From: Erythrobacteraceae bacterium CFH 75059
Lineage (GTDB): Bacteria > Pseudomonadota > Alphaproteobacteria > Sphingomonadales > Sphingomonadaceae
Direction: 5' to 3'
DNA: 64,000 bases
Assembly: GCA_004331795.1 (NCBI GenBank)
Contig: SJSR01000007.1
Span: 1-64,000 of the forward strand
Under the pieces are notes generated by a model. It saw only the letters and a program-made list of their open reading frames with translations, did not search any database and was not told the origin of the DNA. The position numbers were made by a program, and so were the translations under genes. Positions 16,617-49,498 of this stretch are shown one piece after another (position 1 is the stretch's first letter; every line of letters begins with the position of its first letter).

Positions 16617-18245
16617 ATGGGCAGGATCGGGAGCGCAAGAGGTTTTTCATTTTGGCTGTGGGCCCTGCTCCTCGCCGTCGCGGGCTCCGGCCTCGCGCCC
16701 TGCGGGGTCGTGAAGCGAGCCGAGGCACAGGTGCTCGGCCTCGGGGAAAGCGCCGCCAGCCCGACGCCCGCGGCGGATCCATACGGGCGCGACACGCCTC
16801 GCTCGACCGTGACCCGGCTGCTCAGAGCGCTGGCCGACCGCGACTACGTGACGGCGGGGCAGATCTTCGCCCTGCCGGCAGAGCGCCAGGACGAAGCCGC
16901 AGACCTGGCCCGCGCGCTCCAGGCTGCGCTGGACGCCGGAGGCACGCTGCGCCCCTATGCGGAACTGTCGAACGATCCTGCCGGCGCGACGGGTGACGGT
17001 CTGCCCGCCGATCAGGAGCAGGTCGGAACCTTCGGCGGCGCGGAGGCGCTGCCGATCCTGCTGCAACGCACCACGGCGGAGGATGGAAGCGCCTTCTGGC
17101 AGATCGCGCCGGCGACGCTCGATGCACTCGAATCGATCGACATCGCCGTGCCCCCCGCAGCTGCGGATGCGACGGAGCGGGGACCGACCATCGCCGGCGC
17201 GCCGGTCGCGGACTGGCTGCGGCTGGCGGGCGTCCTCGTGCTGCTGTTCGCCGGGTTCTGGCTGCTCTCGCGGCTGCTGCTGTTCGCCGGGCGCAGGCTC
17301 GGCAACGCCGAGTCGCCCGCCTACCACCTCCTGAACGCCGCCCTGCCGCCACTGGCGCTGGTTCTGGCCCTCGTCACCTTCCGCATCCATGGCGGCGATG
17401 CCGAAGTGTCGATCATCGCGCGCCAGACGATGCTGCGCTATCTCGGCATCCTCAATCTGCTCGCCCTGCTGTGGTTCGCCCTGCGGCTGGTCAACGGCAT
17501 CACCAACTGGCTCAGCAACCGCATGCAGCGGGCGGAGCGGCGCCAGGCCGCCTCCGTGATCGTGTTCGCCCGCCGCGTCATCAAGATCCTGCTGCTGCTG
17601 TTCGCCGCGATCGGGGTGCTCGACACGCTGGGCTTCAATGTCACCACGGGACTGGCCGCGCTGGGCCTCGGCGGCCTCGTGCTGGCGCTCGGCGCGCAGA
17701 AGTCGGTCGAAAACCTCGTCGGCACCCTTTCGGTCCTCGCCGACCGGCCGGTGCAGGTGGGGGACTTCTGCCGCGTCGGCGACGTGTCGGGGACGGTGGA
17801 GGACATCGGCATCCGCTCCACCCGCATCCGCACCACCGAACGGACGGTCATCAGCATCCCCAACGGCGACTTTTCCTCCCGCCACATCGAGAACTTCTCG
17901 CAGCGCGACCGCTTCCTGTTCCAGATGATCTTCGGCGTCGATTACGAAGCGGAGCCCGCTCAGCTCGCGGAGGCGGCCGCAACCATCGCCGCCGTGCTCC
18001 ACGACCATCCGCAGGTGGGCCGCGACCCCTGCCGCGCGGTGGTCAAGGGGCATGGACCCGACGCCTACGAGATCGAAGCCCTTGCCTACATCGAGACGAC
18101 CGATTTCGGGGAAAGCCTCGCCGTGCGGCAGGAACTGCTGCTGTCCATCTACCGCAAGCTGGCGGAGGCCGGCATCCCCCTCGCGTCCGCCACCCGCGCC
18201 GCCTTCTACCGCCGCGATCCGGCCGCCGGCGCACCCCGCGCCTGA
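16617..18245 (+). CDS. Mechanosensitive ion channel, MscS family
   Basis: A 542-residue protein started at MGRIGSARGFSFWLWALLLAV (16617). A signal peptide or anchor is followed by a periplasmic region of about 180 residues (ADPYGRDTPRSTVTRLL, with an FGGAEALPILLQR segment). Then come membrane helices near 203-222, 238-255, 276-297 and 322-360. The pore helix and MscS beta domain read LGLGGLVLALGAQKSVENLV and DFCRVGDVSGTVEDIGIRST. The family opens under membrane tension on hypo-osmotic shock. The periplasmic extension is longer than in small MscS and may tune gating. It may be an isolated transcription unit. Confidence 0.9.
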   Translation: MGRIGSARGFSFWLWALLLAVAGSGLAPCGVVKRAEAQVLGLGESAASPTPAADPYGRDTPRSTVTRLLRALADRDYVTAGQIFALPAERQDEAADLARALQAALDAGGTLRPYAELSNDPAGATGDGLPADQEQVGTFGGAEALPILLQRTTAEDGSAFWQIAPATLDALESIDIAVPPAAADATERGPTIAGAPVADWLRLAGVLVLLFAGFWLLSRLLLFAGRRLGNAESPAYHLLNAALPPLALVLALVTFRIHGGDAEVSIIARQTMLRYLGILNLLALLWFALRLVNGITNWLSNRMQRAERRQAASVIVFARRVIKILLLLFAAIGVLDTLGFNVTTGLAALGLGGLVLALGAQKSVENLVGTLSVLADRPVQVGDFCRVGDVSGTVEDIGIRSTRIRTTERTVISIPNGDFSSRHIENFSQRDRFLFQMIFGVDYEAEPAQLAEAAATIAAVLHDHPQVGRDPCRAVVKGHGPDAYEIEALAYIETTDFGESLAVRQELLLSIYRKLAEAGIPLASATRAAFYRRDPAAGAPRA

Positions 18246-46641: not shown

Positions 46642-47346
46642 ATGCTGAAAGAAGCTAGAAAACTTATATCAGCGCTTCTAGCAAACCCTGATCCACAAAT
46701 AACTTCTGAAGAGAGTGCCTACAGGCGCTTGGCTGATCGCGGCTACTCCCCGAAATCGATCATTGATGTTGGTGCGCACGAGGGTGAGTGGACACGCTTG
46801 GCAAAGCGAGTATTTCCTGAAGCGAAAGTCCTGATGTGCGAAGCTTCGGAACAGAAGGCTGCGAATTTAGAGAGTATCTGTCGAGAACTCCCAAACACCA
46901 CCTATTCAATCGCCCCATTGGCAAGTGAAGGGGGGAAAGAAGTCACATTTTACCTTATGGATAATGCTTCTTCTATTATGCCCGAGAATAGCAATATACC
47001 ACGAGAAGAGGTAAGACTTACTACAAAGACGTTGGACGACGTTGCATCAGAAATGGATGGACCGATCTTCCTTAAGATTGATGTTCAAGGGGCGGAGTTA
47101 GAGGTGCTGAAAGGAGGAACTGAAACGCTTAGGAAATGCGATGTCATCCAACTCGAGGTTGCTGTTCTAGAATATAATAGAGGCGCGCCTGATATGAGAA
47201 CTGTTTTGGAAACGATGCACAGACTCGGGTTCTCTCCTTTTGATATCGGTGGTCTGGTCAGGCCCGATTCAATCAACCTAGTCCAAATAGACCTGTTGTT
47301 CGCCAAGCATCACTCTCCGTTGCGGCCGACTTATTTCGCTTTCTGA
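46642..47346 (+). CDS. FkbM family methyltransferase, atypical base composition
   Basis: A 234-residue class I SAM-dependent methyltransferase of the FkbM type. The SAM-binding motif is SIIDVGAHEGEW near residue 39-50, and the acidic loop is FLKIDVQGAELEVLKGG, both characteristic. GC content is far below the neighbours: only 23 of 60 bases are G or C at 46921-46980. Codons such as AGA, TTA and ATA, rare in the rest of the window, are frequent. A purine-rich GAAGAAGGGGGG site precedes the ATG. It looks recently acquired. Its substrate is probably a sugar of a surface polysaccharide or another O-methyl target. Confidence 0.88.
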   Translation: MLKEARKLISALLANPDPQITSEESAYRRLADRGYSPKSIIDVGAHEGEWTRLAKRVFPEAKVLMCEASEQKAANLESICRELPNTTYSIAPLASEGGKEVTFYLMDNASSIMPENSNIPREEVRLTTKTLDDVASEMDGPIFLKIDVQGAELEVLKGGTETLRKCDVIQLEVAVLEYNRGAPDMRTVLETMHRLGFSPFDIGGLVRPDSINLVQIDLLFAKHHSPLRPTYFAF

Positions 47347-47374: not shown

Positions 47375-48391
47375 TCACAGAAATCCTTCCTGATCACCCA
47401 TCCGCCGCGGCACATCCAGTCCCAGGTGCCGCCAGCCGTCATCGTTCAGCACCCGCCCCCGCGCGGTGCGGGCGAGCAGGCCGAGCTGGATGAGGTAGGG
47501 TTCCACCACATCCTCGATGGTGTCGCGCGGTTCGGAAAGGCCGGCGGCCAGCGTTTCGACCCCCACCGGCCCGCCCTTGTAGGTGGTGGCGATCATGGTG
47601 AGGTAGCGGCGGTCCATGGCGTCCAACCCCAGCCGGTCGATCTCCAGCCGGGTCAGCGCCGCGTCCGCCACCGCGCGCGTCACCGTCCCCGCGCCGGCCA
47701 CGTCGGCAAAGTCGCGCACCCGTCTGAGCAGCCGCCCGGCCACCCGCGGCGTGCCCCGCGACCGGCGGGCGATCTCGCGCGCGCCGCCCTCGTCCAGCGC
47801 GAGGTTCAGCAGCCGCGCCCCGCGCGTCACCACCCGCAGCAGCTCGTCCTCGGTGTAGAAGGTCAGGCGCACGGGAATGCCGAACCGGTCGCGCAGCGGC
47901 GTCGTCAGCAGCCCCTGCCGCGTGGTCGCGCCGACCAGCGTAAATGGCGGCAGGTCGATCCGCACCGACCGCGCCGACGGCCCTTCCCCGATCATGATGT
48001 CAAGCGCGCGGTCCTCCATCGCCGGGTAGAGCACCTCCTCGACGACGGGATTGAGGCGGTGAATCTCGTCGATGAACAGCACATCGCGCGCCTCGAGGTT
48101 GGTCAGCAGCGCGGCCAGATCGCCCGCCTTGGCGATCACCGGGCCGCTGGTGGCGCGGAACCCCGCGCCCAGTTCGCGCGCGACGATCTGCGCCAACGTC
48201 GTCTTGCCAAGGCCGGGCGGGCCGAAGAACAGCGTGTGGTCCATCGCCTCGCCCCGCGCCTTTGCCGCGGCGATGAACACGGCAAGGTTCTCCCGCGCCG
48301 CCTCCTGCCCGACGAATTCGGCCAGCGACTTCGGACGCAGCGCGGCGTCGGGATCGTCCGGTTGCCGGGCGGGGGTGTGGAGGGGGGTCAT
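47375..48391 (-). CDS. ruvB: Holliday junction branch migration ATPase RuvB
   Basis: A 338-residue AAA+ motor started at [20 protein letters not shown] (48391). It has [16 protein letters not shown], Walker [15 protein letters not shown], Walker [12 protein letters not shown], sensor 1 [16 protein letters not shown] and the C-terminal winged helix ending RMGDQEGFL. RuvB drives branch migration with RuvA. ruvA lies about 500 bp upstream but is separated by the GIY-YIG gene on the opposite strand and its flanking repeats. Loss of a shared transcript is likely. Confidence 0.97.
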
Positions 48392-48475: not shown

Positions 48476-48506
48476 CGTCATGCTGAACTCGTTTCAGCAT
48501 CCATCC
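48476..48506. repeat. Left arm of REP-like palindromic inverted repeat
   Basis: A 31-base repeat whose reverse complement recurs at 48848-48878 with a single mismatch. Its core is a short palindrome, TGCTGAA-ctcgt-TTCAGCA. The same sequence translated in one frame gives MLNSFQHPS. Sequences of this kind recur dispersed in many sphingomonad genomes. It lies just upstream of the GIY-YIG gene. Confidence 0.85.
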
Positions 48507-48524
48507 TTCCACACAAGGCAATCC

Positions 48525-48860
48525 ATGCCGCGCGAGCGCCACCCCTGCGTCTACATCCTCGCCAGCCAACGCAACGGCACGCTGTATATCGGCGTCACCA
48601 GCGACCTTGTCGCCCGGCTGTGGGAACATCGCACTGGAGCCAGCAATGGCTTCACAAGCCGCTACGCGGTTAACCGCCTCGTCCGCTACGAGATGTTCGG
48701 CGACATGGATCGGGCCATTGCACGCGAAAAGCAGCTGAAGCGATGGCACCGGCGGTGGAAGATCAACCTGATCGAAGACGCAAATCCGGATTGGCATGAC
48801 CTTGCCCCTGCCTTGGGCTTGCCTCCCATTCCTCCGCGCGTGACGAGGGATGGATGCTGA
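48525..48860 (+). CDS. GIY-YIG nuclease domain protein in a repeat-flanked cassette
   Basis: A 111-residue protein started at MPRERHPCVYILASQRNGT (48525). A longer reading from 48480 begins inside the left repeat. The GIY-YIG core is VYILASQRNGTLYIGVTSD, with the arginine in DLVARLWEHR and the EKQLKRWHRRWK segment near the C-terminus. Stand-alone proteins of this UvrC-like/YhbQ group are thought to be nucleases. The stop codon (48858-48860) lies in the right repeat arm. Flanking inverted repeats and the position between ruvA and ruvB on the opposite strand suggest mobility or repeat-associated function. Confidence 0.88.
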   Translation: MPRERHPCVYILASQRNGTLYIGVTSDLVARLWEHRTGASNGFTSRYAVNRLVRYEMFGDMDRAIAREKQLKRWHRRWKINLIEDANPDWHDLAPALGLPPIPPRVTRDGC

Positions 48861-48878
48861 AGCGAGTTCAGCATGACG
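48848..48878. repeat. Right arm of REP-like palindromic inverted repeat
   Basis: A 31-base sequence, the reverse complement of 48476-48506 with one difference. Internal palindrome: TGCTGAA-gcgag-TTCAGCA. It supplies the last codons and the stop of the GIY-YIG gene. The ruvA stop lies 11 bp beyond it. Confidence 0.85.
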
Positions 48879-48889
48879 ACAAGAACGCC

Positions 48890-49498
48890 TCACCCCGCCG
48901 CCCTCTTCAACGCCACCCGGATCAGCTCCCCCTCGCCCGCGCCTTCGCCCAGTTCGCTCTGCGCTTCCGCCACGGCGCGGGCGGCGACGGCGGGTTTGAA
49001 GCCGAGGTTCTCCAGCGCGGACACGGCATCGGCGCTCGCGCCGCTCACCCGCATGGGCGCGCCCGCCGCCACGCCCGCGCCGCCGCCGCCCGGCAGCGCG
49101 CCGGCCCTGTCGCGCAGTTCGTTGACGATGCGGCCGGCCAGCTTCGGCCCCACGCCGTTCGCCCGCGCCACCATCGCCGCATCCCCGCTGGCGCAGGCGT
49201 CGCGCAGCTCGCCCGCCGACAGCGCCGACAGGATCGCCAGCGCCACCTTCGACCCCACCCCCTGCACGCCGGTCAGCAGGCGGAACCAGTCGCGTTCCGC
49301 CGCGTCGGCGAAGCCCAGCAGGCGCATGTCGTTCTCGCTCACCTGCAGGTCGGTGTGCACGCGGCACGCCTCGCCCACATCGCCCAGCGCGGCGAGGGTC
49401 CGGGCCGAACAGTGGACGAGGTAGCCGACGCCCGCCACGTCGATCACCGCCCAGTCGGCGCCGACCTCCTCCAGCCGGCCGGACAGGCGGGCGATCAT
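48890..49498 (-). CDS. ruvA: Holliday junction DNA-binding protein RuvA
   Basis: A 202-residue tetrameric protein started at [20 protein letters not shown]. The OB-fold N-terminal domain is followed by helix-hairpin-helix motifs ([20 protein letters not shown] and [18 protein letters not shown]). The C-terminal RuvB-contact domain (about 150-202, [20 protein letters not shown]) ends the protein. It recognises four-way junctions and loads RuvB. ruvC, usually upstream, is not in the window. The gene diverges from aroC across 213 bp with no gene in it. Confidence 0.97.

Follow-up and report, generated by a model that had tools for sequence, protein, structure and literature searches.

In Erythrobacteraceae bacterium CFH 75059, two inverted palindromes tagged with CGTC enclose a small GIY-YIG nuclease gene that is located between ruvA and ruvB, and related nuclease genes recur between such palindromes in other genomes. 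In our main reading, to which we assign a probability of roughly two in three, the cassette is a gene-bearing doublet of CGTC REPs and the nuclease is the dedicated enzyme of this doublet, mobilising the cassette itself and, in trans, gene-less doublets. By analogy with RAYT transposases and GTAG REPs, the data are best read as a nuclease that would mobilise, or at least act on, its cognate CGTC REPs, the movement being inferred.

CGTC-tagged REPs were surveyed in 2013 (Di Nocera et al. 2013, PMC3733652). These elements carry a CGTC tag, a stem of 8–9 bp starting with A or T, a loop of 4–5 nt and a tail that is mostly CCA. They usually occur as head-to-head dimers, are known from five phyla with most in alphaproteobacteria, and include dRS3 of Neisseria (in CGTC-1) and RPE-4 and RPE-6 of Rickettsia. 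In the survey's words, they "apparently lack a dedicated transposase" (PMC3733652).

The cassette and its two arms

The window, that is, the whole stretch of 64,000 nucleotides that was analysed (contig SJSR01000007.1), has the following features at the ruvA–ruvB site.

47375–48391, minus strand: ruvB, neighbour, outside the cassette
48476–48878, plus strand: whole cassette from CGTC to GACG, 403 bp, equal to the median arm-to-arm length across the 148 two-armed loci
48476–48506, plus strand: left arm, with CGTC tag (48476–48479), stem (48480–48487 and 48493–48500), loop CTCGT (48488–48492) and tail CCA (48501–48503)
48525–48860, plus strand: GIY-YIG nuclease gene, 111 aa from ATG 48525 (126 aa from the alternative ATG 48480)
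48848–48878, minus strand: right arm, inverted copy, with stem (48854–48861 and 48867–48874), loop (48862–48866) and tag GACG (48875–48878; CGTC on the minus strand)
48890–49498, minus strand: ruvA, neighbour, outside the cassette

The left arm (48476–48506) reads CGTCATGCTGAACTCGTTTCAGCATCCATCC. Both 31-bp arms consist of an outward-facing CGTC tag, an 8-bp stem that begins with AT, a 5-nt loop, the returning stem and CCATCC, in other words a CGTC-tagged palindrome with a CCA tail. The sequence-only reading had described the first 31 bases as recurring in reverse complement at 48848–48878 with one mismatch; the comparison agrees and places the mismatch in the loop. Folding bore out the palindrome that it had seen within each arm, as each arm alone forms a hairpin with an 8-bp stem and a 5-nt loop (z -4.5 and -3.9), and none of 200 shuffles was as stable. 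A search of the window with TGCTGAACTCGTTTCAGCA, allowing up to three mismatches, returned two matches where 0.00 were expected, and none of 100 shuffles reached two. A chance origin of the repeat is ruled out by these shuffles together with the hairpin stability.

The single gene between the arms encodes, as proposed, a GIY-YIG nuclease, GIY-YIG being the only Pfam match of this single-domain protein (PF01541, 5e-16). It lies on the plus strand, whereas ruvA and ruvB are on the minus strand. Its stop codon, TGA at 48858–48860, does fall within the stem of the right arm. The layout of a nuclease gene between inverted arms is confirmed as genuine.

The nuclease

The alternative ATG at 48480 is located inside the left arm, in frame with the nuclease gene. 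Since some relatives (e.g. L042, L044 and L122) carry a stop codon between the two ATGs, ATG 48525 is probably the conserved start. In an alignment of 41 proteins, Y10, Y21, G23, R31 and N87 were invariant and E68 was conserved in at least 90%. We take these six residues to be the GIY-YIG catalytic set; GIY...YIG and the Arg, Glu and Asn active-site residues that mark the GIY-YIG superfamily are all present. As judged from dN/dS (median 0.14 and maximum 0.24 over 28 pairs) and from cores free of stop codons in 204 of 208 nuclease loci, the gene is under purifying selection.

AlphaFold models the 111-aa protein with a mean pLDDT of 87, and we infer that this length leaves no space for an extra DNA-binding domain. 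The solved structure closest by sequence is 1zg2 (E 1.5e-6), and UPF0213, UvrC and SLX1 are the nearest solved relatives by sequence and also by fold, the Foldseek scores being weak (best E 3e-3). In NCBIfam the window protein had no match, and three other tested proteins matched only far below the cut-off. Assignment to a known defence system was rejected, the PADLOC matches being only weak (best 3e-4). With the window protein as query, no match was obtained in 50,697 phage records, and phage carriage was rejected; 32 of the 33 plasmid records with a match were typed as non-mobilizable. The nearest named relatives in the genome scan belong to Sphingomonadales, e.g. Porphyrobacter and Erythrobacter.

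Recurrence of the flanked nuclease loci

At E <= 1e-8, 210 of the 298 genomes sampled from the family contain a relative of the nuclease; at E <= 1e-15, so do 87 of 349 genomes of the phylum. The set of loci analysed is not random, consisting of best-scoring or hand-picked loci: from the scan of named genomes only the 80 top-scoring of 565 were retained, and another 80 matches were chosen by hand from the family match list, mostly from its middle and lower part. Before counting, L001, L003–L010 and L121 were excluded (source-genome duplicates, UvrC and repeat-only loci), and 12 duplicate cores were dropped from 220 to give 208 unique loci. Outward CGTC hairpins were detected with 8-bp stems only, so that the arms of L262 and L273, recognised by eye and with 9-bp stems, were missed.

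Full flanks were available for 198 of the 208 unique loci, and 144 of these had outward CGTC palindromes on both sides, compared with a single one of 376 control windows in the same loci. At least one outward CGTC arm was found at 184 of the 198 loci (25 of 376 controls), and no arm was detected at the remaining 14. Of the first 31 loci, 30 showed a pair of inverted palindromes; the one miss, L038, has a short flank and does carry arms. In the next 110 loci, a set that was not deduplicated and contains the window once more, the best inverted match reached at least 15 in 73 cases, against none of 410 shifted windows. The two arms of one locus are often unlike in sequence, yet the palindrome is kept in each.

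The sequence-only reading had likened the layout to REP systems with a GIY-YIG enzyme replacing the usual transposase, a comparison that would have failed if the repeats were unlinked to GIY-YIG genes elsewhere or if all relatives carried the gene between ruvA and ruvB without flanking repeats. Neither is the case, as the two-sided counts given above and the presence of at least one CGTC arm at all 38 ruvA–ruvB nuclease loci demonstrate, and the comparison is supported.

The same controls bear on the possibility that the association is passive, in which case REPs serving as terminators or mRNA stabilisers would gather beside small genes and the link to GIY-YIG genes would have no function. REPs do lie mostly downstream of genes (PMC3733652), and the stop codon within the right arm of the window suits such a role. 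Passive gathering is nevertheless strongly disfavoured by the lone control window with both arms, and it leaves unexplained the two-sided outward orientation as well as the class concordance and genus-level covariation described below.

Outside Pseudomonadota only seven loci were found, all in metagenome assemblies for which assembly error is not excluded; both arms were present in two (Cyanobacteriota and Rifleibacteriota), one arm in two (Planctomycetota and Myxococcota) and none in three. A plasmid collection contributed six nuclease loci. Two from Sphingobium and one from Azospirillum had arms, the Sinorhizobium meliloti locus had 9-bp-stem arms by eye, and an adjacent arm pair was absent at L263 of Rhizobium tumorigenes. 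In the sixth, from Neisseria gonorrhoeae, the nuclease is situated within an array of class C repeats (see below) in mixed orientation, which presumably match the dRS3 motif. In S. meliloti L262, the end of the nuclease gene and the right repeat recur upstream of the gene, resembling a partial tandem duplication.

Stem classes and nuclease clades

Four stem classes recur among the arms: A (..TGAA) and B (..CGGA), both mostly with a 5-nt loop, and C (..CCGC and close variants) and D (..CGGC), both with a 4-nt loop. Judged by the lengths of stem and loop, class A corresponds to CGTC-2 of the survey and class C to CGTC-1 (PMC3733652). The source genome (2.26 Mb) encodes one such nuclease with class A arms and a second with class B arms. 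The second (L002, contig C13, about 17076–17294) is accompanied by a different inverted CGTC palindrome with a CCGGA stem.

The two arms agreed in stem class in all 124 pairs with both arms in A–D; 24 further pairs contain an unclassified arm and stand outside this count. On a maximum-likelihood tree of the nucleases from 176 loci, the stem class changed 16 times, compared with a mean of 72.0 (minimum 60) for shuffled classes; the tree counts omit the 32 of the 208 loci to which no single stem class could be given. For the 138 loci of Sphingomonadales the number was 12, compared with a shuffled mean of 47.8 (minimum 36 of 300), and for the 38 loci outside this order the signal was weak, with 6 changes against 9.6 (minimum 7). 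Stem class tracks nuclease clade. Common descent of whole loci could be the source of part of this agreement, and the copy number of the repeats elsewhere in the genome was therefore compared.

Repeat copy number and nuclease presence

Over 298 genomes, the number of class A repeats correlated with the score of the A-like nuclease (Spearman 0.62). Of the 61 genomes with a nuclease match at E <= 1e-40, 53 had at least five class A repeats. Of the 88 nuclease-free genomes (no match at 1e-8), 82 had fewer than five class A repeats and six had at least five (G018, G070, G135, G141, G176 and G194); loss of the nuclease or assembly gaps may perhaps account for these repeat-holding genomes.

The comparison within genera used the 33 genera in which a strong A-like nuclease (E <= 1e-38) is present in some species and absent from others. 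After subtraction of two repeats per nuclease-bearing genome, class A repeats were more numerous with the nuclease in 29 genera and less numerous in four (p 1e-5). The strictest correction, in which two repeats were subtracted per nuclease match, gave 24 genera up, 7 down and 2 equal (p 5e-4), and this over-corrects since some matches belong to other classes. Class C repeats under the same A-nuclease split showed no such trend in these genera (11 up, 15 down, 7 equal; p 0.92). Within genera, repeat number covaries with the presence of the nuclease, and does so in a class-specific manner. Besides the six repeat-holding genomes named above, two findings are counter-evidence: across all 298 genomes, class C repeats too correlate with the A-nuclease score (0.41), and where a class C nuclease was seen, their number was raised only marginally (p 0.057).

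Much of this evidence is also explained if the nuclease is a homing parasite, which cuts gene-less REP doublets and has its gene copied into the gap by recombination between palindromes, the repeats themselves being spread by another enzyme. Repeat abundance would then equal target abundance, which also fits the genus-level covariation, and the nuclease gene does occupy the spacer position of a doublet. At ruvAB of G018, a doublet without a gene is found at the very spot occupied by the gene in other genomes, and GIY-YIG enzymes are classic homing endonucleases (PMC1564403). A homing parasite, however, requires a second, unknown mobilising enzyme, and the 2013 survey reports no CGTC-associated transposase (PMC3733652). 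Moreover, the scarcity of class A repeats in 82 of 88 nuclease-free genomes would be unexpected if the repeats spread independently of the nuclease. We consider homing unlikely rather than remote.

The ruvA–ruvB site

The nuclease is located between ruvA and ruvB in 38 of the 208 loci, antisense to ruvA in 31 and sense in 7. The sequence-only reading took ruvA and ruvB to be adjacent as a rule. This is not so in the family, where the gap was below 200 bp in only 5 of 26 loci with a resolvable ruvB start, out of 30 fetched loci that were the best-scoring 30 of 108 matches. Of the proposed insertion between the two genes, the position stands, whereas the interruption of otherwise adjacent genes does not, the site being a recurrent home of the nuclease. 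The gap differs among the 30 fetched ruvA regions: it holds a nuclease in seven (window included), a gene-less doublet in L242, a single repeat in L253 and merely 13 bp in L259. This variability makes ruvAB a favoured or anciently inherited home of the nuclease. On the tree, occupancy of ruvAB changes 18 times, whereas shuffling the labels gives 35.3 changes (minimum 31 in 200 shuffles). The observed changes, together with the 38 loci found there, rule out the ruvAB position as a unique event.

Comparison of ruvAB in relatives for an empty site, as had been suggested, gave none that was clean at the base level, the flanks having diverged. In the nearest relative, G019 (L232), the space between ruvA and ruvB is taken by another ORF, of about 118 aa, and the gap seems to be a general insertion spot of the family. 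The ORF adjoining ruvB in the window (46642–47346) is, by its look, what we take to be an FkbM-type methyltransferase.

The role of ruvA and ruvB as Holliday-junction processing genes suits an alternative in which the nuclease is a host maintenance enzyme. It would trim or resolve REP hairpins and cruciforms so that more repeats are tolerated, and the flanking repeats would aid its own expression or stability. Apart from the 38 loci at ruvAB, the kinship to UPF0213, UvrC and SLX1, the purifying selection, the near-absence of mobilizable plasmid matches and the lack of phage matches to the window protein are all in keeping with such a function. It leaves unexplained, however, why the gene itself has flanks of matching class, and why cassettes occur between sufB and sufC in two lineages (see below). 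We regard maintenance as quite improbable, and return to the nuclease as the dedicated enzyme of the doublets.

Signs of mobility

In the source genome, the strict class A pattern occurs five times, namely as the left arm of the cassette, as one doublet (two copies) and as two more repeats. The right arm of the cassette misses the strict pattern by one base, and a looser pattern recovers it along with other partners. The source genome is low-copy for class A repeats. At L004 (about 1496–1586), the coding sequence of cysS includes an in-frame REP doublet that adds ~30 residues and leaves the frame of 520 aa open; a base-level empty site could not be identified at cysS, the flanks being too diverged. 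The doublet of L005 is shared with G019.

Gene-less doublets of the form CGTC-hairpin-CCA...TGG-hairpin-GACG, with spacers of 34–84 bp, were seen in two repeat-rich genomes (400 kb of each). G066 had three outward and three inward pairs, G286 had four outward and no inward pairs, and 20 of the 34 class A repeats of both fell outside outward pairs. G286 contains two pairs of near-copy doublets at different sites, whose likeness stops at the tags. Among 33 repeats away from the nuclease at other loci, close pairs were outward in ten cases, inward in two and tandem in one.

In Azospirillum lipoferum 4B a nuclease lies between sufB and sufC with one doublet on each side, and this cassette is missing in A. 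ramasamyi, A. oryzae, Azospirillum sp. B510, A. thermophilum, A. argentinense and A. brasilense. The sufB–sufC gap of Shinella sp. PSBB067 (L273) contains a different nuclease with 9-bp-stem CGTC arms. The Shinella and Azospirillum cassettes are apparently independent insertions in one operon gap. In a pair of Rhizobium genomes, a second doublet is absent from one relative, where other DNA is in place; the flanks had diverged and no clean empty site was obtained.

No target-site duplication was found outside the arms in 141 of 148 loci (shuffled 141.2), nor at any of seven gene-less doublets, which sets the cassette apart from a classic DNA transposon. At the arms of the 148 loci, which are related and not independent, the tag is directly preceded by C or T in 90%, and G makes up 7–10% at positions -2 to -8. 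Repeats away from the nuclease show a similar, noisier G-poor trend (33 repeats, with 30% G at -2, and another 34), compared with 31% G overall. The G-poor sequence 5' of the tag is possibly a target preference or an extended motif. Movement of the cassette and of the repeats is inferred and not shown, as no transposition has been observed.

Relation to known systems

The arms of the window match the CGTC REP superfamily, as described in the survey, in the unpaired end tag, stem, loop and CCA tail, and head-to-head dimers repeated in the genome are also present in the source genome, at low copy. The difference is that no enzyme is reported there for CGTC REPs (PMC3733652), whereas here a GIY-YIG gene recurrently occupies the dimer.

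With REPINs and the REP-RAYT systems (REPtrons), the cassette shares the dispersed palindromic doublets and an enzyme gene that sits between repeats of the same type. The enzyme of REP-RAYT systems is an HUH tyrosine transposase (IS200/IS605-like) and their tag is GTAG, in contrast to the GIY-YIG nuclease and the CGTC tag found here. RAYT transposases are thought to mobilise GTAG REPs. GIY-YIG enzymes hydrolyse DNA and are not known to have strand-transfer chemistry, a point against the main reading. The homing endonucleases I-TevI and I-BmoI have the same catalytic domain and are encoded by a similarly selfish-looking nuclease gene; unlike these, the present protein is a single small domain, no intron or intein was seen, and palindromes flank the gene. 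The GIY-YIG nucleases UPF0213, SLX1 and UvrC, although structurally closest, are to our knowledge not described as repeat-flanked.

No paper linking GIY-YIG enzymes to CGTC REPs or dRS3 was found among the open-access papers of PubMed Central that searches listed; subscription papers and preprints were not covered, and an earlier report is possible. GIY is absent from the text of some papers that cite the survey (PMC3733652), and RepRanger 2025 (PMC12306157), which also cites it, contains neither nuclease nor transposase in its text.

Proposed mechanism and implications

In the proposed mechanism, the small GIY-YIG gene would be the spacer between two outward-tagged CGTC hairpins. The nuclease would recognise the hairpin of its own stem class, as an extruded cruciform or as a single strand, and nick or cut at or near the CGTC tag; both the binding and the cutting are inferred, and structure-selective GIY-YIG enzymes provide the analogy for cutting a hairpin in either form. 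Host repair or recombination may then copy or re-insert the doublet, presumably without target duplication and with a preference for sites that are G-poor 5' of the tag. In this way the nuclease would mobilise its own cassette and, in trans, gene-less doublets. Everything beyond the gene travelling with matching hairpins is inferred. As the mover that CGTC REPs were reported to lack, the nuclease is a strong candidate, but one for which no cleavage, binding or transposition has been observed.

A bolder claim, on which we are evenly divided, is that these cassettes constitute a class of bacterial transposable element, in which a single-domain GIY-YIG nuclease recognises its own hairpin ends and moves not only itself but also, in trans, gene-less repeats that can number hundreds in one genome. 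Such an element would supply the engine that the CGTC REP superfamily has been missing, all the way from Sphingomonadales to dRS3 of Neisseria, working by hydrolytic hairpin cutting and host repair and not by transposase chemistry.

The 2013 survey left open how CGTC REPs spread (PMC3733652), and a recurrent, class-matched nuclease gene makes this question directly testable. If the main reading is true, REP-type repeats would have a second, chemically different engine, and a function would be suggested for widespread small GIY-YIG proteins that are now annotated by domain only.
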